NCBI GenBank assembly: GCA_902620455.1
Contig: CACNIG010000003.1
Span: forward strand, 1 to 64,000
Source: an uncultured Bacteroidota bacterium
GTDB taxonomy: Bacteria > Bacteroidota > Bacteroidia > Flavobacteriales > Flavobacteriaceae
Length of the DNA: 64,000 bases
Direction of reading: 5' to 3'
Shown one piece after another: positions 15,144 through 56,343 of the stretch. A model generated the notes under the pieces. The model was not told the origin of the DNA, did not search any database, and saw only the letters and a program-made list of their open reading frames with translations. Position numbers and translations under genes: made by a program. The number at the start of each line of letters is the position of its first letter. The stretch's first letter is position 1.

Positions 15144-15832
15144 TGGATTTATTTTATTCAAATTATAAAGCAAATGACAAATATGTGGTTATGAACGAGA
15201 TAGACAGCAAACATATTATTAGATCATTTCGAAAGAATATTGGTGATAGCATTATGATAACTAATGGATTTGGTTATTTATGCAATGCGGAAATAGTCGA
15301 AATAGGAAAGAAAATAAAAGTTAAAATTAATAGTATTGAAAAATTTAAGTCATCTTCTAATTCTATTCACATCGCATTATCCCCTTTAAAAAATGCATCC
15401 AGGTTTGAATGGTTTGTAGAAAAGTCAACAGAACTTGGAATTAGCCAAATTACACCATTAGTATGTGAATATTCAGAAAAAAAGAAAGTCAACATGGATA
15501 GATTAGAGAGGATTTTAATAAGTTCCTTAAAACAATCTAATCAATTTTTCAAACCAATTATTAATTCAATTAAAACTTTCGAAGATTTTATAAGAGATAA
15601 TGAAGATGAATTATTAATGGCTAATTTAAAAACATCTAATAAAATTAAAAGAGAGTTATTTACTCAGAATAATATTTGCCTTATGATTGGGCCTGAAGGT
15701 GGGTTTTCTGATTCAGAAATTAAACTTGCAAAAAAAAAGAATATTAAAGAGATAACACTCGGTAATAGCAGATTAAGATCTGAGACTGCTGCAATCTTCG
15801 GATTATCTGTAATAAAGTCATTGATTAGTTAA
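15143..15832 (+). CDS. rsmE: 16S rRNA (uracil-1498-N3)-methyltransferase RsmE
   Basis: A 229-residue SPOUT methyltransferase that methylates U1498 of 16S rRNA. An N-terminal PUA-like part is followed by the knotted domain with FEWFVEKSTELGISQITPL, the SAM-binding MIGPEGGFSDSEI and the terminal LGNSRLRSETAA. It overlaps tsaD by one base. Its stop codon shares a TTAA tetranucleotide with the stop of the convergent nitronate monooxygenase, so the two genes overlap by 4 bases tail to tail. Confidence 0.94.
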   Translation: MDLFYSNYKANDKYVVMNEIDSKHIIRSFRKNIGDSIMITNGFGYLCNAEIVEIGKKIKVKINSIEKFKSSSNSIHIALSPLKNASRFEWFVEKSTELGISQITPLVCEYSEKKKVNMDRLERILISSLKQSNQFFKPIINSIKTFEDFIRDNEDELLMANLKTSNKIKRELFTQNNICLMIGPEGGFSDSEIKLAKKKNIKEITLGNSRLRSETAAIFGLSVIKSLIS

Positions 15833-16806
15833 TAATCATTTTCACTAAAGTTAAGATTAGCCTTTTGACTTTCAATTGAATCAATAAACTCAGCTTTCAA
15901 TTTGTCAATCAGATCTCTGCATGCTGGATTATCATCAATTGAACTTACTCCATGACCTGCAGACCAAATTGTTTTCCAGGCTTTAGCCTCAGCTTCAGCC
16001 ATATCTTTTCCAAAATCTAATTTTTTAGAATCATTCCAAACTTCCTCAGTTACTCCCATAGCCTCAAGACTGGGTCTTAGAAAATTAGCATGTACTCCTG
16101 ATACAGCTGCTGTATAAACTATGTCCTCTGCTGAGGAATTTATAATCATTTCTTTATATCCATCTTCTGCCATGCTTTCTTTAGTGTTGATAAATCTTGT
16201 ACCCATGTATGCAATATCTGCACCCATTTGAAGTGCAGAAGCAATATCCCTTCCATTTGATATACATCCAGATAAAATAATAGTTTTTTTAAAGAAACTT
16301 TTTATCAATGATATCATAGCCATAGGATTCTTTAAACCTGCATGCCCACCAGCTCCAGCAGTAACTAGAACTAATCCGTCAACATTTGCTTCAGCAGCTT
16401 TTTCTGCATGCCTTTTTTTAATAATATCATGATATACTAATCCACCATAGCTGTGAATTGCATTCACAATGTCAGGAACAGCGCCTAATGATGTTATAAT
16501 TAATGGAACTTTATGCTTAACACAAATATCTAGATCTGCCTTAACTCTAATATTTGAGGGATGAACAATTAAATTTACCCCAAATGGTGCAGGTTTTATT
16601 CCAGTTTCACTCTCAAATTTTGAAAGTTCATCCTTAATCTCAATTACCCACTCTTCAAAACCTTCTGAAGTTCTCTGATTTAAAGCTGGAAAAGTCCCAA
16701 CTATTCCTTTTTTACAACATTCAATTACAAGCTTTGGACCTGAAATTAAAAATAGAGGTGCCGCAATTACAGGCATGTTTAATTTATTATAAAAGTCTTT
16801 ATCCAT
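15829..16806 (-). CDS. Nitronate monooxygenase (2-nitropropane dioxygenase family)
   Basis: A 325-residue FMN-dependent TIM-barrel enzyme. MPVIAAPLFLISGP opens the barrel, the putative catalytic His lies in TAGAGGHAG, and the FMN-phosphate loops are GCISNGRDIASALQMGADIAYMG. Family members oxidise alkyl nitronates such as propionate 3-nitronate; some act as enoyl reductases. I prefer the ATG at 16806 to an upstream start at 16839, because it makes an 8-base overlap (ATGGATAA) with the hotdog gene, a pattern seen four times in this window. It ends the operon that starts with two sulfatases and the FGE-like gene. Confidence 0.88.
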   Translation of the reverse strand: MDKDFYNKLNMPVIAAPLFLISGPKLVIECCKKGIVGTFPALNQRTSEGFEEWVIEIKDELSKFESETGIKPAPFGVNLIVHPSNIRVKADLDICVKHKVPLIITSLGAVPDIVNAIHSYGGLVYHDIIKKRHAEKAAEANVDGLVLVTAGAGGHAGLKNPMAMISLIKSFFKKTIILSGCISNGRDIASALQMGADIAYMGTRFINTKESMAEDGYKEMIINSSAEDIVYTAAVSGVHANFLRPSLEAMGVTEEVWNDSKKLDFGKDMAEAEAKAWKTIWSAGHGVSSIDDNPACRDLIDKLKAEFIDSIESQKANLNFSENDY

Positions 16807-17257
16807 TTTTTCTTTTTTTACAAGACCATTCAAATTCAAATTCAGAGACTAAATCTCCTTCCTCATCATGACCTTTAGCTTTAAGCCACGCTTTAGAGGT
16901 AATATCATTAATGGTCGAATTTATTAATTGTTTAGCTATTTCTCCTTCACTACAAGTAAAAGTTATTTTTCCTACTGCTTTTTTATGAAATATAGATTTG
17001 TTACTCACAAGAAGCATTGAGATGTTAGCATTGGAATCTTGAATAGATTTAGTAAGTAGCATACCTGTAGTTAATTCAGCTGCCATCCCCTGAACAGCCC
17101 AGAACATAGACCTGTAAGGATTTTGATTTATCCATTTAAACTTTACTTTAACTTCACATTTATTTTCATTAATTAAAGTAAGTCTGACTCCAGATAACCA
17201 GGCAGCAGGAAGATTTAAAAGCATCCATCTATTAATTTTACTTGGTATATATTTCAT
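16799..17257 (-). CDS. Hotdog-fold protein, DUF4442 type
   Basis: A 152-residue protein resembling PaaI-like hotdog thioesterases of the DUF4442 group. Visible pieces are a long helix with NPYRSMFWAVQGMAAELTTG, where a thioesterase active site would lie, and beta strands such as CEVKVKFKWINQ and GKITFTCSEG. No clear catalytic Asp or Glu of the usual PaaI motif is obvious, so enzymatic activity is uncertain. It starts directly after the FGE-like gene stop and overlaps the nitronate monooxygenase by 8 bases, so it is co-translated with both. Acyl-CoA thioesterase is the best guess. Confidence 0.68.
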   Translation of the reverse strand: MKYIPSKINRWMLLNLPAAWLSGVRLTLINENKCEVKVKFKWINQNPYRSMFWAVQGMAAELTTGMLLTKSIQDSNANISMLLVSNKSIFHKKAVGKITFTCSEGEIAKQLINSTINDITSKAWLKAKGHDEEGDLVSEFEFEWSCKKRKNG

Positions 17258-17833
17258 TTATTCTGTTAAAATACTAAATCCAATATGAATATTACCAGTT
17301 TCTTTATCAACATATAATTCTCTATCCTCTTGAGTTCCATGACAAGTATCTATTGAACAAAAAATTGATCCGCCTGCTAACCTTACTTGATCTGTGTTAT
17401 CAGGTTCTGTAATATCCCATACATTTCCAACAATATTAACAGATTTGACATCAGAAATTGGATAAAGATTATCTGAGACAATTAGCCTATCATCTGAAGC
17501 TACAAATTTCCAATATTCTTCATAAGTGGGAAGTCGAACACCAGCCCATTTACAATATTCTAATGCATCTTTGTAACTCACTTGTGTTACGGGCAGACTG
17601 TCAATTGATTTATTAATACCATCTGGTTTTGTCCAATTTGCTCCATTTACAATTTTATAGTCATAAACATTTTCTTGAACAAAGGACCAACCATACTCTT
17701 CTGCACTAGTTATGTACCCAGTAGCATCAATAAAATCTTTAAATTCTTTTACTGATACAGTCTTAATATTGTAATCTTTTGGTGATGAGCATGAAACTAA
17801 TATCGTTATTAATAATAAGTATATTTTTTTCAT
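17258..17833 (-). CDS. Short lipoprotein FGE-like sulfatase-modifying factor
   Basis: A 191-residue lipoprotein: signal peptide with lipobox LVSC, Cys15 being the lipid site. The rest is a shortened formylglycine-generating-enzyme domain. FKDFIDATGYITSAEEYGWS matches the family start, VSYKDALEYCKWAGVRLPTYE the central core, and VGNVWDITE the GNVWEW block. The terminal AGGSIFCSIDTC keeps the two active-site cysteines (Cys159, Cys164) with the usual four-residue spacing. FGE uses copper and oxygen to turn the sulfatase cysteine into formylglycine. Usual length is near 300 residues, so roughly 100 are missing. It lies one base after a cysteine-type sulfatase, with four more nearby. Likely a periplasmic activator; activity unproven. 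Confidence 0.82.
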   Translation of the reverse strand: MKKIYLLLITILVSCSSPKDYNIKTVSVKEFKDFIDATGYITSAEEYGWSFVQENVYDYKIVNGANWTKPDGINKSIDSLPVTQVSYKDALEYCKWAGVRLPTYEEYWKFVASDDRLIVSDNLYPISDVKSVNIVGNVWDITEPDNTDQVRLAGGSIFCSIDTCHGTQEDRELYVDKETGNIHIGFSILTE

Positions 17834-17834
17834 A

Positions 17835-19451
17835 CTAATTATATAAAAAACTTTTATCTAATTCCTCCGAGTCTTTATACTTAATCCTTAATTCTTTTAA
17901 TTCTTCTGTTAGCTTTACAACTACATCTGCATAATTTGGATCATTGTAAACGTTATTCATCTCATTTGGATCATTTTTACGATCATATAATTCCCACTCA
18001 TCGACATCAAAATAAAAGTGAACAAGTTTATAATCTTTATTTACTATTCCATAGTGTCTCTTTGCCATATGCACTGATGGATACTCATAATAGTGATAAT
18101 AAACTGATTCTCTATTCCATTTATCAGAATTTCCTTTTAATAATGGTATAAGACTTTCGCCTTGCATATCTTTTGGCGCATCAATCATTGCAGCTTCTAG
18201 GAAGGTCTGAGCAAAGTCAAGATTTTGAACCATCTCTTCATTTGTTGTTCCAGGTTTAATTTGATTAGGCCATTTAATCATTAGTGGAGTTTTGAATGAC
18301 TCATCATAAATAAACCTCTTATCAAACCATCCATGTTCACCAAGATAGAACCCTTGATCTGAAGTGTAAACAACTATAGTATTCTTGTCAAGCCCTGACT
18401 TTTCTAGATAGTCTAAAACTCTACCGACATTATCATCTACAGATGAAATCGTCGCCAAATAGTCCTGCATATATCTTTGAAACTTCCATTGCATCTTCTG
18501 CTTAGTATTCATTTTAGGCCAATTAGTCTCAAAATCTTGGCTTATTTTATTTAAAATAACATCGTATTTTTTCTTTTGTTCATCATTAGCTCTGTTATAT
18601 CTATCATTGAATGAATTCGAGCTAGGTTCAAAAAAAGTTCCATCACCTCTAGCATAAACAATCTTTGGCTCTACATTTTTCATTTTTTCAAATACAGAGG
18701 GTCTTACCTTACTATCTTGCATATACTGCATGTGAGTAAGAAGATTCATCTCAGCAGTTTTTGCAGCGGTACCTCTATTAGAGTAATCATCAAAAAGAGT
18801 CTCTGGTTCAGGAAACTTTTTATTATAAAATTCAGCAAACTTTTCTGGGCTTGGCCACCAAGCTCTGTGAGGTGCTTTATGAAGATAAAATGTTAAGAAG
18901 GGCTTATCCTTATCTCTTTTATTTTTAAACCAGTCTAATGTTAAGTCAGTAATGACGTCTGTTACATACCCGGTTATGATTGTATCCCTATCTTTTCCAA
19001 GAAATTTAGGGTTAATATAATCTCCCTGTCCCGGAAGAATAAGGAAGTCATCTATACCCTTGGGATTATTGCCAAAATGTAGTTTGCCAAACATAGCTGT
19101 TTGATATCCAGCTGTTTTAAATAATTGAGGAAAAGTCATTTGAGAATCATCAAATTTTGCGATGTTATCTATTTTACCATTAATATGACTGTGTTTACCC
19201 GTAAGTATGACAGCTCTGGATGGAGCACATATAGAGTTTGTCACCGAGGCATTAGTAAATAACATTCCTTCATCAGCAATTCTGTCAATATTTGGAGTGT
19301 GTATTAATCTATCATCATAAGCACTTATAGCTTGATAAGCATGATCATCAGACATTATAAATAAGATATTAGGTTTAATATTTTCTCCTTTATTACAGCT
19401 AGTTATAAACAATAAAGTTAAAATATGGACTACAAATAATTTTTTAATCAT
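17835..19451 (-). CDS. Lipoprotein sulfatase, S1 family (GlcNAc-6-sulfatase-like)
   Basis: A 538-residue exported lipoprotein (Cys19 after FITS). The active-site signature is SICAPSRAVILTG with Cys75 to be converted to formylglycine. Asp35-Asp36 (MSDDH) bind calcium, and the later metal block reads TSDQGFYLGEHGW. The APHRAWWPSPEKF substrate loop and the FGKLHFG lysine resemble S1_11 N-acetylglucosamine-6-sulfatases, but substrate is not certain. It starts 2 bases after the upstream sulfatase stop and ends one base before the FGE-like start, so activator and client are made together. Confidence 0.9.
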   Translation of the reverse strand: MIKKLFVVHILTLLFITSCNKGENIKPNILFIMSDDHAYQAISAYDDRLIHTPNIDRIADEGMLFTNASVTNSICAPSRAVILTGKHSHINGKIDNIAKFDDSQMTFPQLFKTAGYQTAMFGKLHFGNNPKGIDDFLILPGQGDYINPKFLGKDRDTIITGYVTDVITDLTLDWFKNKRDKDKPFLTFYLHKAPHRAWWPSPEKFAEFYNKKFPEPETLFDDYSNRGTAAKTAEMNLLTHMQYMQDSKVRPSVFEKMKNVEPKIVYARGDGTFFEPSSNSFNDRYNRANDEQKKKYDVILNKISQDFETNWPKMNTKQKMQWKFQRYMQDYLATISSVDDNVGRVLDYLEKSGLDKNTIVVYTSDQGFYLGEHGWFDKRFIYDESFKTPLMIKWPNQIKPGTTNEEMVQNLDFAQTFLEAAMIDAPKDMQGESLIPLLKGNSDKWNRESVYYHYYEYPSVHMAKRHYGIVNKDYKLVHFYFDVDEWELYDRKNDPNEMNNVYNDPNYADVVVKLTEELKELRIKYKDSEELDKSFLYN

Positions 19452-19453
19452 AA

Positions 19454-20851
19454 TTATTTCAAATCTATTAATAAATCCTTTGCAATTATCAAATCATTTT
19501 TGTGTTTTTTAATAATCTCATCAATTTTATCTAAAACATCAAGATTATCCTCATAAATATTATTCTTTTCGGAAGGGTCAGTATCAAGATTATATAAAAA
19601 TGGTGTTTTTAGAACCTTCATAGGTTTTCCATCATATGCCTCATGAAGCTTTAAATGAAGCTTATATGACTTATATCTTACAGCCATAAGTTCTGCCCCC
19701 CAATAATAAAAAAATTTTTCTGTAGGACTTTTAGATAATGATTCAAAGACAGGGCTTAAATTATTACCATCAATTATTCTATCATTAGGAATTTCAACAT
19801 CAGCCAAATAACTAAAGGTTGAGAATAAGTCCATAGATGTCCCAATATCATCAACTACGCCTGACTTAATGTAACCTGGACCCCAGATTACAGTTGGAAC
19901 TCTGATACCTCCTTCCCATGTTGAACCTTTTCCTCCTCTCAATATACCAGCAGTTCCTCCTTCTTTACCCATTTCTAACCAAGGACCATTCTCTGATGTA
20001 AATACAATAATTGTTTTATCCGATAGACCTAAATTTTTTATTTTATTTATAATTTGCCCAACACCATAATCTATTTCTTCTATTACATCTCCATAAGGAC
20101 CTTCACTTGATCTGCCCTCAAACATTTCAGATGAAAATAATGGTACATGAGGCATGCTATGTGCTAGATATAGAAAGAAATTATTATCGCTATTATCCTC
20201 AATAAATCTCAATGATTCATGAAGATATCTTTTAGTTAATGTTTTTTGATTAACTGGTCTTTCAATTATCTTATTATCAAATATTAATGGAACATTAAAA
20301 TTGTTGTAATTTTTTCTCTCATCGCTTTTCCACATATCCCAATAATTTATATTCGAAACATTATCCATGTCATTTGAGTAAGGTAATCCGAACCATGAGT
20401 CAAATCCATGATTCATAGGAAAATACTCTTCTTTGTTTCCTAGGTGCCATTTACCCACTAATTTCGTTTTATAATTTGATTTCTTAAGTTGTTCGGCGAT
20501 TGTTATTTCAGATTGGGGAATTCCATTCAAGGAATTTGGAAACAAGACACCTCTTGTGTTACTTGTTAATCCTGATCTAAGTGGAAGTCTACCAGTTAAA
20601 AGTGCTGCTCTACTGGGAGTACATACACTGGCTCCAGCATAAAAATTTGTCCATTTTTGTCCCTCAAATGACATTTGATCAATATTAGGTGTTCTTATAT
20701 TCTTATTTCCAAAAACACCTATATCACCATATCCCAGGTCATCAGCTAGAATAATAATTATATTTGGTTTATCAGCTTTACTTTCATCTTGAGAACAATC
20801 AATCAAAATAAATGCTAAAAAGAATATTGCTAAAAGTTTAAATTTACTCAA
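19454..20851 (-). CDS. Lipoprotein sulfatase, arylsulfatase A/GALNS-like
   Basis: A 465-residue lipoprotein (Cys19) with SQDES right behind the lipid site, similar to Bacteroidota surface-export signals. The active site is SVCTPSRAALLTG with Cys77, preceded by ADDLGYGD (Asp37-Asp38). GKWHLG and the loop FGLPYSNDM are typical of the arylsulfatase A/GALNS group. The later metal motif, usually SDNGP, here reads SENGP (Glu287). The start is TTG, 41 bases from the divergent sulfatase. It is the first gene of the five-gene operon reaching the nitronate monooxygenase. Confidence 0.9.
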   Translation of the reverse strand: MSKFKLLAIFFLAFILIDCSQDESKADKPNIIIILADDLGYGDIGVFGNKNIRTPNIDQMSFEGQKWTNFYAGASVCTPSRAALLTGRLPLRSGLTSNTRGVLFPNSLNGIPQSEITIAEQLKKSNYKTKLVGKWHLGNKEEYFPMNHGFDSWFGLPYSNDMDNVSNINYWDMWKSDERKNYNNFNVPLIFDNKIIERPVNQKTLTKRYLHESLRFIEDNSDNNFFLYLAHSMPHVPLFSSEMFEGRSSEGPYGDVIEEIDYGVGQIINKIKNLGLSDKTIIVFTSENGPWLEMGKEGGTAGILRGGKGSTWEGGIRVPTVIWGPGYIKSGVVDDIGTSMDLFSTFSYLADVEIPNDRIIDGNNLSPVFESLSKSPTEKFFYYWGAELMAVRYKSYKLHLKLHEAYDGKPMKVLKTPFLYNLDTDPSEKNNIYEDNLDVLDKIDEIIKKHKNDLIIAKDLLIDLK

Positions 20852-20892: not shown

Positions 20893-22314
20893 ATGAGAAA
20901 AAAATTATTTTTTGCTTCAATACTAACTAGCTTTTTAATTGTTAATAGTTGTCAAGAAAATGATGCAACAAAACCTAATATTGTATGGCTAGTTATTGAA
21001 GATCAATCTCAATATTTTTTTCCTTTTTATGGAGATAATACTATTGAATTACAAAACATAAATCAGCTACTAGATAATGGAATTGTATATGAAGGAATGA
21101 ACTCTCCATATCCAGTATGCGCGCCTTCAAGGAGTGCTATTATTACTGGTATGTACCCAAATTCAATTGGAACTGGAAATCAAAGAGCTTACAGCTATTA
21201 TAGAGCTGAAAGAGAAGAACAAGAAAAACAACTAGGATTTCCTTTCTACTCATCAAAATTTGCAGAACAGATTAAACCATTTACTCAAATTTTAAGAGAG
21301 AACGGTTATTATACTTCAAATAATGATAAAGAAGATTATAATTTTAAATTAACCAAAGAAGCATGGGATGATTCCAGCAGTAATGCTTCATGGGAAAACA
21401 GAGAAGCAGATAAACCATTCTTTTCTGTTTTTAATTTTGGTATTACCCATGAATCTCAAATTTGGTTAAGAGATAAACAGGTACTTAAAGTCAATCCTGC
21501 TAATGTAAAAGTACCTACATTTTTTCCAAACGATTCAATTACAAGACACTCGATGGCAGTTAACTACTCAAATATATTGGAGGCAGACAAACAAATAGGA
21601 ATTATAATCCAAAGACTTAAGGAACAAAATCTTTTCGATAATTCCTATATATTTTTTTACAGCGATCATGGTGGCCCTTTCCCAAGACACAAAAGAGCAA
21701 TATATGAAACTGGTTCAAAAGTTCCGATGATAATTAAATTTCCAAAAAGCATAAACATAAAAAACAAAAGAAATCAGGATCTTCTTAATTTTATCGACTT
21801 TGCACCTACAATTTTATCAATTGCTGGAATTGATATACCAGAAATATATCAAGGTAGAGCCTTTCTTGGTTCAAATAAAAACAAAAATAAAAGGAGATAT
21901 TTATTTACAGCTAGTGATAGATTTGATGAAATACCTGAAAAGATAAGGGCAGTAAAATCAAAAAGGTACAAGTATATTAGAAACTATAATATTGATATTC
22001 CACATGCTTTTAATAACAAGTACAGGTCTCAAATGAAACTAATGAAGCACCTATCTTATCTAAATGATAATAAATTATTATCAAAACAAGAAAAGCTTTG
22101 GTTTCAAAATCCCAAGAGTTTTGAAGAGTTTTATGACTTAAAAAATGATCCTTTTGAATTGAATAATTTGATTGATGAAATTAGATACGAAGACGAAATA
22201 AATAATCTAAGGAAGCAACTAGATAATTGGATTAAAATCATAAATGACCCAATTAATATTCCTGAAAAAGAGTTGGTAAAATTATTAACTGCTAACAAAA
22301 CTATTCAAGAATGA
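20893..22314 (+). CDS. Lipoprotein sulfatase, sulfamidase (SGSH)-like
   Basis: A 473-residue lipoprotein (Cys20, followed by QEND). The signature PVCAPSRSAIITGMYP places Cys76 in the formylglycine position. KPNIVWLVIEDQS and the TGMYPNSIGTGNQ segment resemble heparan N-sulfatase (sulfamidase, S1_8) proteins. The first of the usual metal aspartates is Glu36. The later metal site is YSDHGGPFPRHKRAIYETG. It is the only sulfatase on the plus strand, sits between two minus-strand ones, and overlaps the next by 14 bases tail to tail. Substrate is inferred from resemblance only. Confidence 0.88.
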   Translation: MRKKLFFASILTSFLIVNSCQENDATKPNIVWLVIEDQSQYFFPFYGDNTIELQNINQLLDNGIVYEGMNSPYPVCAPSRSAIITGMYPNSIGTGNQRAYSYYRAEREEQEKQLGFPFYSSKFAEQIKPFTQILRENGYYTSNNDKEDYNFKLTKEAWDDSSSNASWENREADKPFFSVFNFGITHESQIWLRDKQVLKVNPANVKVPTFFPNDSITRHSMAVNYSNILEADKQIGIIIQRLKEQNLFDNSYIFFYSDHGGPFPRHKRAIYETGSKVPMIIKFPKSINIKNKRNQDLLNFIDFAPTILSIAGIDIPEIYQGRAFLGSNKNKNKRRYLFTASDRFDEIPEKIRAVKSKRYKYIRNYNIDIPHAFNNKYRSQMKLMKHLSYLNDNKLLSKQEKLWFQNPKSFEEFYDLKNDPFELNNLIDEIRYEDEINNLRKQLDNWIKIINDPINIPEKELVKLLTANKTIQE

Positions 22315-23863
22315 GATCTTCTATGTTTGAAAAATTCTTACCTCTTATTTCTACAAAACTTGAAATCATTTCCTTTAATTTATCTTCATTAATTACAGAC
22401 AAATTATTTTTTTGAGCTGGATCTTCTTTTATATTATATAGCATGAAATTTAATGAATTTCCTAGCTCAATATTGACATTTTTTGAAACTTCAGGTCCTT
22501 TGTATGGAGGTATCATCACCCAATCACCTTTTCTAAAAGCTGTTCTTGTTGAAGCTTCAATAATTAGTTCATCTCTACCTTTACCTTTATTATTAATTAA
22601 AAGTTGAGAAAAATCATTCCCATCAATTGATTCATATTTAGATCCAATTAAAACAGAAATTGAGTTAAATAAATCAACCTGAGATATTATTTCATTTGAA
22701 ACACCTGGTTTAATTTTCCCTTTCCAATATGTTATAAAGGGTACTCTTGTACCTGCTTCAAAAAGACTGTATTTACCACCCCTTAGACCACCTGAGGGAG
22801 TATGATCTCCTAGTTTTTCAACAGCATTATCATAATATCCATCATTTAGAACTGGACCATTATCACTTGAGAAAATAATAAAAGTATTATCTAATAAATC
22901 TTCACTTTGAAGGGTCTTATATAGCTCTCCAATTGACCAATCAGCCTCAATAATTGCATCACCTCTTGGCCCCATACCAGATTGACCCTCAAATCTTGGA
23001 TGTGGAGTTCTTGGTACATGAGGTTGTTGAAGTGAGTAAAAAAGAAAGAAAGGTTTTGACTTATTAGCTTTTATATATTCTATTGACTTATCTAAAAAAT
23101 GATCAGACATATCAATATCACTCCAAAGTGCATTTTTACCACCTTTCATATAACCGATCCTAGGCACACCATTTATAATTGAACCATTATGGCCGTGATG
23201 CCACTTCATTGTTGTCATTTCTGGATTTTTTAATCCAGTTGGCAAACCATAATCATCATGTTTATTTTGATGAAAAAAATTGACCTCAATTGGATCATTA
23301 GGATCAAGATTAACAACTTTACCATTTTCAATATAGACTGTAGGAACTCTATCTTGAGTGTCTGCCATAATATGAGAGAAGTCAAAACCAACTTGGTTGG
23401 GTCCGGGTGAAATATTTAAGTTGTAATCAATTATACCTGAACCTGCAACACCATCTCCAGAACCTAATCCTAAGTGCCATTTACCGACAATTCCTGTCTG
23501 ATAACCCTTTGTTTTCAAAAGTTTAGGAATAGTCATCTCAGTTGTATCAATTACTAAAGAACCACCTGTAATAACTCTTAACCCGTCTTTTCTCCATGGG
23601 TAGTTGCCTGTTAAAAGCCCATATCTACTTGGACTACATGTAGCTGAGGTTGAATAACCATTATTAAATCTAATACCCTCATTAGCTAATTTATCTATAT
23701 TCGGAGTGTTCAATGTTCCTTTCCCATATGCACTTACATCTCCATAACCTAAGTCATCAGTATAAATTATAATAATGTTAGGTAGATTATCTAAGTGATC
23801 ATTTGTCTTACATCCAATTAATATAAATTGAATTAATATCAGAAATCTAATTTTATTTATCAT
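22301..23863 (-). CDS. Lipoprotein sulfatase, S1_15-like
   Basis: A 520-residue lipoprotein (Cys18 after ILIG). Active site ATCSPSRYGLLTGNYPWR with Cys76; metal aspartates in YTDDLGYGD; GKWHLGLG; second metal site SSDNGPVLNDGYYDN. The SPSRYGLLTGNYPWR and QQPHVPRTPHPRF features resemble S1_15 enzymes that remove 6-sulfate from galactose or N-acetylgalactosamine, but this is a guess from motifs. It overlaps the preceding sulfatase by 11 bases on the same strand, so both should be translated from one mRNA. Confidence 0.9.
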   Translation of the reverse strand: MINKIRFLILIQFILIGCKTNDHLDNLPNIIIIYTDDLGYGDVSAYGKGTLNTPNIDKLANEGIRFNNGYSTSATCSPSRYGLLTGNYPWRKDGLRVITGGSLVIDTTEMTIPKLLKTKGYQTGIVGKWHLGLGSGDGVAGSGIIDYNLNISPGPNQVGFDFSHIMADTQDRVPTVYIENGKVVNLDPNDPIEVNFFHQNKHDDYGLPTGLKNPEMTTMKWHHGHNGSIINGVPRIGYMKGGKNALWSDIDMSDHFLDKSIEYIKANKSKPFFLFYSLQQPHVPRTPHPRFEGQSGMGPRGDAIIEADWSIGELYKTLQSEDLLDNTFIIFSSDNGPVLNDGYYDNAVEKLGDHTPSGGLRGGKYSLFEAGTRVPFITYWKGKIKPGVSNEIISQVDLFNSISVLIGSKYESIDGNDFSQLLINNKGKGRDELIIEASTRTAFRKGDWVMIPPYKGPEVSKNVNIELGNSLNFMLYNIKEDPAQKNNLSVINEDKLKEMISSFVEIRGKNFSNIEDLILE

Positions 23864-25379
23864 TTTCTAGAACTGGTATTTTAAATATATCCATTGTTGG
23901 AGTTTTATGAGCCTCTTTCATCATTTTTTCCATTTTGGTTACAATATCAGGATGCTCAGACGCAACATCATTTAACTCTCTTGAATCAACGCTTAAATCA
24001 TAGAGTTTTAGTTTTGATGACCCCTTAAACAATCCCTTCTTAATACCTTTCCATTTATCAATTCTTATGGCTTGTTGTCCACCATATGAGGGAAACTCCC
24101 AGTATAAATATTTATGCTTTTCTTGAGTTTTACCTTTTAAAGTAGGAAGAAAACTAATTCCATCTGTTTTGTATGGAGGTGATGCGCCAACTAAATCAGA
24201 AACTGTAGCTAAGTAGTCATAAAATGTGCTTAGATGATTAGACTCTGAACCAGAAGGTATAACATCTGGCCAACTTACAATTGTTGGTACCCTTATACCT
24301 CCCTCATTTAAATTACCTTTTACTGTATTTTCTAAATTTAAAAAGGGACCAGCACTATTAAAAAAATCAATATCTACATGCTTAATATGAGTTGGGCCAT
24401 TATCACTTGAAAAAATAATAAGAGTATTTTCATATTTTCCAATTTCTTTTAGTTTTTGTACTAATTCACCAACTTGTTGATCTAAATATGATATCATTGC
24501 TGCATAAGTAGCTTTTGGATATTGGTTTGGGTAATACCCAGATCCACCAGTATATGGCTCCTCATCTCCAAATTTTTCCCTATAATAATTTACCCATTCA
24601 ATGGGAGCTTGTAAAGGTAAATGAGGAATAGGGGAAGCATAATAAACAAAAAACTTATCATCCTTGTTTCTTTCAATAAACTTAAGCGCCTCTTGATGTA
24701 TTAGTTTTGGAGCATAATCTTTTTGATTATACCTATAGTAACTTTCTTCGTTATCTGGGTCAAGACCTATTGGTAGTCTTCCTTTATTGACAATTTCATT
24801 ATCTAAGATTTGTCTTTCCTTATTTTTCCATAAATGGGTAGGGAAAAATGTGTGAGCTTGTCTTTGACAGTTGTAACCATAGAAAAAGTCAAAGCCTTTA
24901 TTGTTTGGAATACTTTTTGTATTAGGAGCACCTAAACCCCATTTACCAAACATACCTGTTTTATATCCCTTTGATTTTAGAATATCAGCCAATGTTATAA
25001 TTGAATCTGGCAATGGTCTTTGACCCTCCAATTCTGGGTTTTCAAACATAGCTTTAAAGCTCCAAACATCTCCTCTTTCTTTCCACTCATCATTTCCTCT
25101 AATTGGATTATGTCCAGAGTGAAGACCTGTAAGAAAAATAGACCTTGAGGGTGCACATACAGGTGATCCAGTGTAATGATCCGTTAAAATCATACCATTT
25201 TTTGCAAGTTGGTCAATATTTGGAGTTTCAATTTTTTTTTGACCTAATATTCCAATTTCTCCATATCCTAAATCATCTGCTAAAATGAACACAATATTAG
25301 GAACGGTATTTTTATTTTCAGTTTTTGAACAAGAAAATATTATTAATAATATTAAAAAAATGATTTTGTAATTCCACAT
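23853..25379 (-). CDS. Lipoprotein sulfatase, S1 family
   Basis: A 508-residue lipoprotein (Cys17 after IIFS). Active site PVCAPSRSIFLTGLHSGHN with Cys75; metal aspartates in ADDLGYGE; GKWGLGAP; later metal site SSDNGPTHIKHVDIDFFN. A YNCQRQAHTFFPTHLW segment after the GKWGLG lysine is a recognisable subfamily mark, but I will not name the substrate. The ATG lies only 18 bases beyond the hairpin that ends the tRNA transcript, so its promoter must overlap that hairpin or it depends on read-through. It leads a two-sulfatase run. Confidence 0.9.
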   Translation of the reverse strand: MWNYKIIFLILLIIFSCSKTENKNTVPNIVFILADDLGYGEIGILGQKKIETPNIDQLAKNGMILTDHYTGSPVCAPSRSIFLTGLHSGHNPIRGNDEWKERGDVWSFKAMFENPELEGQRPLPDSIITLADILKSKGYKTGMFGKWGLGAPNTKSIPNNKGFDFFYGYNCQRQAHTFFPTHLWKNKERQILDNEIVNKGRLPIGLDPDNEESYYRYNQKDYAPKLIHQEALKFIERNKDDKFFVYYASPIPHLPLQAPIEWVNYYREKFGDEEPYTGGSGYYPNQYPKATYAAMISYLDQQVGELVQKLKEIGKYENTLIIFSSDNGPTHIKHVDIDFFNSAGPFLNLENTVKGNLNEGGIRVPTIVSWPDVIPSGSESNHLSTFYDYLATVSDLVGASPPYKTDGISFLPTLKGKTQEKHKYLYWEFPSYGGQQAIRIDKWKGIKKGLFKGSSKLKLYDLSVDSRELNDVASEHPDIVTKMEKMMKEAHKTPTMDIFKIPVLENDK

Positions 25380-55851: not shown

Positions 55852-56343
55852 ATGTACAATAAAATACACTTATTTGGTGTTCTAATTTTTAGCTTTTCAA
55901 TGCTAAATTGTCAAACAAACACAAAATCTGAGGAACCTAAAATAACATATAACGTGAGTAAAACAGACAAAGAATGGAGAGAAGAACTATCTCCTGAAGA
56001 ATATGAAATTCTGAGAAATAAAGGGACAGAGAGGCCACATACTGGTATCTATAACATGCACTTTGAGGATGGTGTATATGTTTGCAAAGCATGCGGACAA
56101 CCACTATTCAAGAGTAATAATAAATTTATGTCTAATTGTGGATGGCCAAGTTATGAAAGTGCTATACCTGGCGCAATAACATATAAAAAAGATACAAGTT
56201 TAGGTATGATTCGAACAGAAATACTATGCTCTAACTGTGGAGGTCACCAAGGTCATGTATTTGATGATGGTCCAACTTCTACAGGTAAAAGATATTGTGT
56301 AAATTCTGCAAGTATTAATTTTATAAACAATAAAAATGAGTAA
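55852..56343 (+). CDS. msrB: Peptide-methionine (R)-S-oxide reductase, lipoprotein form
   Basis: A 163-residue MsrB that repairs methionine-R-sulfoxide in proteins. It has a signal peptide with a probable lipid Cys20 (MLNC), so it acts outside the cytoplasm. Zinc is bound by Cys78/Cys81 (CKACG) and Cys126/Cys129 (CSNCGG). The catalytic Cys149 is in RYCVNSASI, and GHVFDDGP supports the family. The residue before the lipid Cys is Asn, unusual for a lipobox. It overlaps lpdA by 8 bases (ATGAGTAA). Confidence 0.93.
   Translation: MYNKIHLFGVLIFSFSMLNCQTNTKSEEPKITYNVSKTDKEWREELSPEEYEILRNKGTERPHTGIYNMHFEDGVYVCKACGQPLFKSNNKFMSNCGWPSYESAIPGAITYKKDTSLGMIRTEILCSNCGGHQGHVFDDGPTSTGKRYCVNSASINFINNKNE

Follow-up and report, generated by a model that had tools for sequence, protein, structure and literature searches.

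A compact lipoprotein-like member of the FGE family adjoining Cys-type sulfatases in a flavobacterial genome

How does a bacterium of the Flavobacteriaceae, in which all the sulfatases that we find are of the Cys type and look exported, activate these enzymes, and could a protein of 191 residues do so? The question is raised by a gene in the window, as we call the whole stretch of 64,000 nucleotides that was analysed, whose product the original prediction described as a very short homologue of the formylglycine-generating enzyme (FGE). According to the available text of PMC12123546, FGE binds Cu(I) through two cysteines of its active site, the substrate Cys adds a third ligand, and activated O2 serves to oxidise Cβ-H; that of PMC4505483 describes prokaryotic FGE as cytosolic.

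The gene, its product and its neighbours

The open reading frame is read on the minus strand (17833→17258), and its product begins with MKKIYLLLITILVSC, in which LVSC15 forms a lipobox of the Sec/SPII type ending at Cys15. In the FGE proteins, lipoboxes were recognised by a regular expression combined with a hydrophobicity threshold, 0.70 for the short proteins and 0.65 for full-length ones. Further along the chain lie RLPT (residues 100-103), GNVWD (136-140), GGS (154-156), the cysteines Cys159 and Cys164, His183 and a terminal GF (185-186). The FGE-sulfatase domain, PF03781, is the sole Pfam match, with E 9.3e-18 and 65 bits against a cut-off of 23, and the protein has no match to the radical SAM/SPASM maturases (anSME). 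Judged by these sequence features, the 191-residue protein is a genuine compact member of the FGE family.

Table 1. Features of the window around the short FGE gene, with one distant gene
Feature	Coordinates	Strand	Remarks
Compact FGE-family lipoprotein-like protein (P0001), 191 aa	17258..17833	-	ORF, PF03781, model, lipobox check
Sulfatase, 538 aa, lipoprotein-like N-terminus ITSC19, Cys75 in CAPSR	17835..19451	-	Adjoins short FGE gene upstream
Sulfatase, 465 aa, TTG start, Cys77 in CTPSR, LIDC19 as atypical lipobox	19454..20851	-	
Sulfatase, 473 aa, Cys76 in CAPSR	20893..22314	+	Strand opposite to short FGE gene
Sulfatase, 520 aa, Cys76 in CSPSR	22301..23863	-	
Sulfatase, 508 aa, Cys75 in CAPSR	23853..25379	-	
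DUF4442 protein	16799..17257	-	First base directly after short FGE stop codon, no gap
Nitronate monooxygenase-like protein	15829..16839	-	Overlaps DUF4442 gene
MsrB-like methionine sulfoxide reductase, lipobox-like N-terminus by eye	55852..56343		

As had been predicted, the gene begins one base past the stop codon of a Cys-type sulfatase gene of the same strand (17833 versus 17835; table 1), beyond which four further sulfatase genes extend up to position 25379, one of them on the other strand. A sulfatase is the gene adjoining the short FGE at 19 of the 27 loci L039-L065, including those of the distant relatives L057, L060 and L061, and it also lies directly upstream of the short gene at L273; at seven of the same 27 loci the flanking sequence, short in some cases, showed no recognisable sulfatase. 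The DUF4442 gene, on its part, is next to the short FGE gene at 13 of the 15 loci L039-L053, and the nitronate monooxygenase-like gene likely marks the end of the short FGE transcript. Elsewhere in the window, the MsrB-like protein is possibly another exported redox enzyme.

The genome as a whole, of 1.24 Mb and 95.4% complete, carries seven sulfatases, all of Cys type (six with CxPxR and one with CxAxR) and all with an N-terminus that by eye resembles a lipobox, atypical in the 465-residue enzyme; the lipoprotein nature claimed at the outset for both enzyme and sulfatases agrees with these lipoprotein-like N-termini. Searches of this genome returned no FGE-domain protein besides the 191-residue one and no match to TIGR03942, the anSME model, at E ≤ 10, so that neither of the separate activators that the original prediction had considered, a full-length FGE or an anSME, was found at this completeness. 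The 191-residue protein is therefore the sole activator candidate found in its own genome, and it would probably act on exported sulfatases.

A clade of short proteins and its relation to catalytic FGEs

The short protein is not confined to this genome. Six peptide patterns, a scan that detects close relatives only, identified 29 loci with short FGE relatives among the GTDB species genomes, all titled Bacteroidota, the carriers including Tenacibaculum aiptasiae, a Kordia MAG and Saprospiraceae MAGs; proteins near 191 residues in size are kept at 26 loci besides that of the window. The complete short FGEs that we compared number 31 (27 aligned plus four from the order sample), range from 187 to 211 residues and come from several Bacteroidota families; the set excludes the frameshifted L064, the partial L066, L067 and L023, and L275. 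Cys159 and Cys164 are invariant in the 27 aligned proteins, and GGSxxCxxxxC is kept in all 31. Compared with ten relatives, the window gene has dN/dS values of 0.11-0.18; purifying selection acts on the gene, and its identification as a pseudogene or fragment was rejected on these values together with the conserved size. A maximum-likelihood tree, calculated from 65 proteins of the FGE family, separates the 31 short members from the rest by a long branch (support 100/100); the tree program issued a warning that the long row L030 meets it. The form looks rare: it occurs in at least five of 395 genomes of the order and at least four of 395 of the phylum, two samples that both include the present genome and have three genomes in common, and these counts are lower bounds because at most eight candidates were scored per listed genome. 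Among viral contigs, a search with the short family found no relative. Two of the excluded genes are damaged: at L064 (8001-8525) a frameshift, which could reflect relaxed selection or an assembly error, falls just past the second Cys, and the genome has a single PF00884 protein, LtaS-like by eye; L275 (G584:C14:280495-281049), from another family and a genome 99% complete, contains one internal TAA.

Compared profile against profile with 13 Cys-bearing FGEs of full length from the Flavobacteriales, the short family scores a probability of 99.8% (E 3.4e-30), in an alignment that pairs both cysteines, GGS, GNVW, His183 and the C-terminal GF; Cys159 and Cys164 fall on Cys312 and Cys317 of L025, and His183 on its His336. 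The Cys pair of T. curvata FGE aligns to the same two residues, in a stretch of 0.1 bits, and the distance from the second Cys to the C-terminal GF or SF is 20 residues in all 31 short and all 18 full-length FGEs. Both the homology to FGE and the CxxxxC pair with GGS, RLPT and GNVW, as originally read from the letters, are thus upheld, the pair being in register with that of catalytic enzymes. In the PDB, the best match by single sequence is CalU17 (E 1.2e-13), aligned in the N-terminal part only, and the best by profile is SUMF2 (E 6e-18), with a score that also comes from the N-terminal part. SUMF2 is the human paralogue of FGE, inactive and devoid of the active-site Cys pair; its alignment shows no Cys at the pair positions, both of which the short FGE keeps.

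AlphaFold gave a poor model (pLDDT 54.6) from an alignment restricted to 27 close relatives, and one built on 52 sequences, after the addition of 25 diverse FGE-fold proteins, reached a mean pLDDT of 86.9 and a pTM of 0.83; since its alignment held FGE homologues, this model depends in part on the sequence evidence. Foldseek ranks human FGE as its top match (E 6.9e-13, TM 0.74 by query length), followed with weaker E values by the FGEs of T. curvata and then S. coelicolor, while VIA superposes the model on human and T. curvata FGE with Z values of about 20 (174 residues, 2.3 Å). The highest Z in VIA is nevertheless that of CalU17, 21.1 at 3.0 Å, and SUMF2 attains 19.4, so that the fold of the model cannot separate FGE from SUMF2 or CalU17; among the listed families, lower values are found for PvdO (14.8), CarF (14.2), EgtB (13.5) and PorK (12.7).

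With the FGE/SUMF1 enzymes of human, S. coelicolor and T. curvata the short form has in common the predicted fold, GGS with CxxxxC, the equivalent of Ser333, GNVW, the 20-residue spacing to the C-terminal GF and the linkage with Cys-type sulfatases. It differs from them in size, their solved chains having about 270-300 residues, in lacking the strands at the N-terminus together with two long segments from the middle, which appear as alignment gaps, and in the loss of Tyr340; to our knowledge, it would be smaller than any known FGE. FGE has two Ca2+ sites, and the absent segments presumably include the first of them. The GNVWD segment with Asn133 and Asp140 is kept in at least 90% of the short FGEs, and the other segment that we associate with Ca2+ binding is absent from the sequence.

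In the available text of PMC4505483, the activity of human FGE is affected by Cys336, Cys341, Ser333, His337 and Tyr340. Short FGEs keep the equivalents of three of these five residues, the two cysteines and Ser333, the last as Ser156, invariant in the 27 aligned proteins. His337 has no equivalent in them, nor in 14 of the 18 full-length FGEs; only the other four have it. Immediately before the second Cys, where human FGE has Tyr340, 30 of the 31 short proteins have Thr and one has Ser, as against Tyr in 17 and Trp in one of the 18 full-length FGEs; this change, which had gone unmentioned in the original prediction, is a notable point against formylglycine-generating activity of the short FGE. 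Near the Cys pair there is also a new conserved block, D176, K177, T179, G180 and N181, invariant in all 27 aligned proteins.

The lipoprotein-like short form departs from the cytosolic prokaryotic FGE of PMC4505483, a contrast that the original prediction had drawn. Its picture of cytosolic bacterial enzymes accords with the available text of that source, but export is not peculiar to the short form: among the 18 full-length, Cys-bearing FGEs of the Flavobacteriales (L025-L029, L031-L038 and L261-L265), 16 have a lipobox-like N-terminus, all with hydrophobicity of at least 0.77. Consequently, exported FGE is probably common, and indeed general, in the Flavobacteriales rather than special to the short form, and the window protein would be a reduced version of it. 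The full-length proteins measure 311-401 residues (one is cut by a contig end), all 18 keep the Cys pair, and the 13 that were aligned have a His where the short form has His183. In the tree the full-length proteins fall outside the short clade. Human FGE is matched by one of the 18 with E 4e-52, the alignment running through the CxxxxC pair. Outside this set are L024, which has no Cys pair, L030 and four FGEs of viral contigs. L030 (1189-2139, 317 residues, same family) carries GGSxxCxxxxC with Ala before the second Cys, has no lipobox-like start by eye and sits on a very long branch; by its sequence it is another Cys-pair form without the tyrosine, and with it the counts become 16 of 19 for the lipobox and 18 of 19 for Tyr or Trp. 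The viral-contig proteins, L076-L079, are full-length FGEs with a CxxxxC pair on contigs classed as viral in IMG/VR, and are either true phage genes or products of misclassified bacterial contigs. Among the literature matches listed, covering titles, abstract openings and few subscription journals, no short or exported sulfatase-activating FGE was found, which is weak evidence.

Several other branches share the FGE fold. CalU17, the best single-sequence match in the PDB and first by VIA Z, is an FGE-family protein of calicheamicin biosynthesis but has 317 residues, and we know of no link between it and sulfatases. PvdO, the Pseudomonas pyoverdine enzyme, is exported and acts on pyoverdine, not on a protein; it has the FGE fold, but its Z of 14.8 compares with about 20 for the FGEs. 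EgtB, SenA and OvoA are full-length sulfoxide synthases with an N-terminal DinB-like domain, and an EgtB or SenA identity was rejected, the scores being 40.5 bits against a cut-off of 420 for SenA and 36.1 against 360 for EgtB, over profile positions 209-310 only. PorK, GldK and GldJ, of the T9SS and gliding machineries, have the FGE fold, the lipoprotein nature and the Bacteroidota in common with the short form; in the available text of PMC12421860 they are larger proteins with insertion domains and without catalytic cysteines, that is, FGE-fold lipoproteins without catalysis, and they are a separate structural branch of such lipoproteins. A GldK or GldJ identity was rejected because no such model matches at E ≤ 0.1 and the Cys pair is kept.

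Co-occurrence with sulfatases

Of the 25 genomes that represent the genus, 15 have the short gene, 17 have strong sulfatase matches, defined by a cut-off chosen in this analysis (E ≤ 1e-20), and 14 have both; the resulting table (14/1/3/7) gives p = 0.0017, the shared ancestry of the genomes being ignored. One genome, G001, was scored as sulfatase-free despite a match of E 3e-14 at a contig edge, and scoring it as positive changes p to 0.0068. In G018 and G013 the contig ends within the sulfatase that normally precedes the short gene (89% and 78% identical to it), so that the FGE site is out of view; without these two genomes p becomes 0.0002, or 0.0017 if G001 is also taken as positive. G021 has a strong sulfatase match without the short gene, and G017, 77% complete, has the short gene with no sulfatase found. 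At the G017 locus (L023, G017:C26:1-1878) the short FGE, cut by the contig end, adjoins a TPR gene and the sulfatase array between them is missing, which looks like loss of the array with the FGE kept.

No genome of the 25 has a TIGR03942 match at E ≤ 0.001, and on this result and that of the own-genome search anSME was rejected as the actual activator. Other FGE-domain proteins in the genus are only paralogues of 317-319 residues without the Cys pair, present in six of the 25 genomes (L068-L073, in G014, G016, G006, G023, G022 and G013); they have the FGE fold and look exported, and one occurs in a genome without a sulfatase match. If each of the 14 genomes with both genes had a second activator, the chance of missing it in every one through incompleteness alone would be about 3e-10 when the genomes are treated as independent.

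The 12 genomes of distant short-FGE members all have PF00884 matches, although in G110, where the short gene is frameshifted, the only one is LtaS-like by eye. None has an anSME match above the family cut-off and six have weaker ones, led by two radical SAM proteins of Tenacibaculum; the match of T. aiptasiae (G105) fits the peptide maturases YhhB/FxsB better than anSME. T. aiptasiae also carries a sulfatase in a frame of 458 residues (G105:C5), whose close counterpart in G102 has the motif CSPTR. FGE-domain matches in G102, G104, G105 and G110 comprise only the short gene and proteins that by their size correspond to GldK/GldJ, and G104, with two Cys-type sulfatases and no anSME match, is a second case resembling the window genome. 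The other eight genomes carry further FGE-domain matches, two of which, from G101, were checked and lack the Cys pair.

Proposed function and its alternatives

Anatomy, sulfatase linkage and the lack of alternatives are the reasons for which an activator role is proposed. We consider it moderately probable that the short gene encodes a compact, exported FGE of the copper type that activates the sulfatases of the cell, and the balance of evidence favours the short FGE as the sulfatase activator of this organism. The protein would be lipidated at Cys15 and held at a membrane, facing the periplasm, with Cys159 and Cys164 binding Cu(I). The lipoprotein-like Cys-type sulfatases would leave Sec unfolded, the Cys of their CxPxR or CxAxR motif would join the copper, and O2 would oxidise this Cys to formylglycine before the sulfatase folds.

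Could the protein instead be a non-catalytic helper, a chaperone or regulator that grips the CxPxR of nascent sulfatases and uses its Cys pair as a structural disulfide? The FGE fold is re-used in this manner by SUMF2, our best PDB match by profile, and by the hubs PorK and GldK, non-catalytic FGE-fold lipoproteins of Bacteroidota in the available text of PMC12421860; moreover, the equivalent of Tyr340 is lost in all 31 short proteins. Yet both cysteines are kept in the same 31, whereas they are absent from PorK according to that text and from the paralogues of the genus, and a mere helper would leave seven Cys-type sulfatases with no catalytic activator found. The model, too, is nearer to catalytic FGEs than to PorK, even if SUMF2 comes close to them, and overall we regard the helper role as unlikely. 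Somewhat less likely still is a copper-thiolate oxidase with the mechanism of FGE and some other target, for example another exported protein, received in a groove altered by the exchange of Tyr for Thr. The changed residues by the Cys pair, with their new conserved block, and the position of the short gene away from sulfatases in some genomes speak for such a shift, but the sulfatase neighbour at 19 of 27 loci, the co-occurrence of the gene with sulfatases and the failure to find another activator speak against it.

The presence of the short protein might also be incidental, with the sulfatases activated by an unrecognised enzyme or working as unmodified Cys hydrolases; an unmodified choline sulfatase is the subject of PMC6189696. 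Purifying selection, the linkage with sulfatases and the absence of anSME matches from all 25 genomes of the genus make this improbable. Hardly any weight falls on the reading of the gene as an artefact, or as what is left of a full-length FGE in decay: the frameshift of L064 after the second Cys and the internal stop codon of L275 are of the kind that decay would produce, but size and core are kept in 31 proteins of several Bacteroidota families and the dN/dS values contradict decay.

Taking the short protein as a compact exported FGE, what is new here is a compact form of a known enzyme kind. A broader proposition, to which we give an even chance, is that marine Bacteroidota switch their sulfatases on outside the cytoplasm: lipoprotein FGEs, both full-length ones and a derived compact form with about 175 residues past the lipidated Cys, would oxidise the Cys of sulfatase chains just across the inner membrane, as a bacterial counterpart of the ER pathway, and the compact form would work without the conserved active-site tyrosine. 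If true, the compact form would set a lower size limit for the copper chemistry of FGE and, lacking that tyrosine, offers a test case for the minimal requirements of this chemistry; it could also serve as a smaller tool for aldehyde-tag labelling. A conserved clade of exported FGEs, the only candidate activators found in these streamlined bacteria of the sea, would move sulfatase activation to the periplasm, and could explain how Cys-type sulfatases are activated without anSME in small ocean bacteria.
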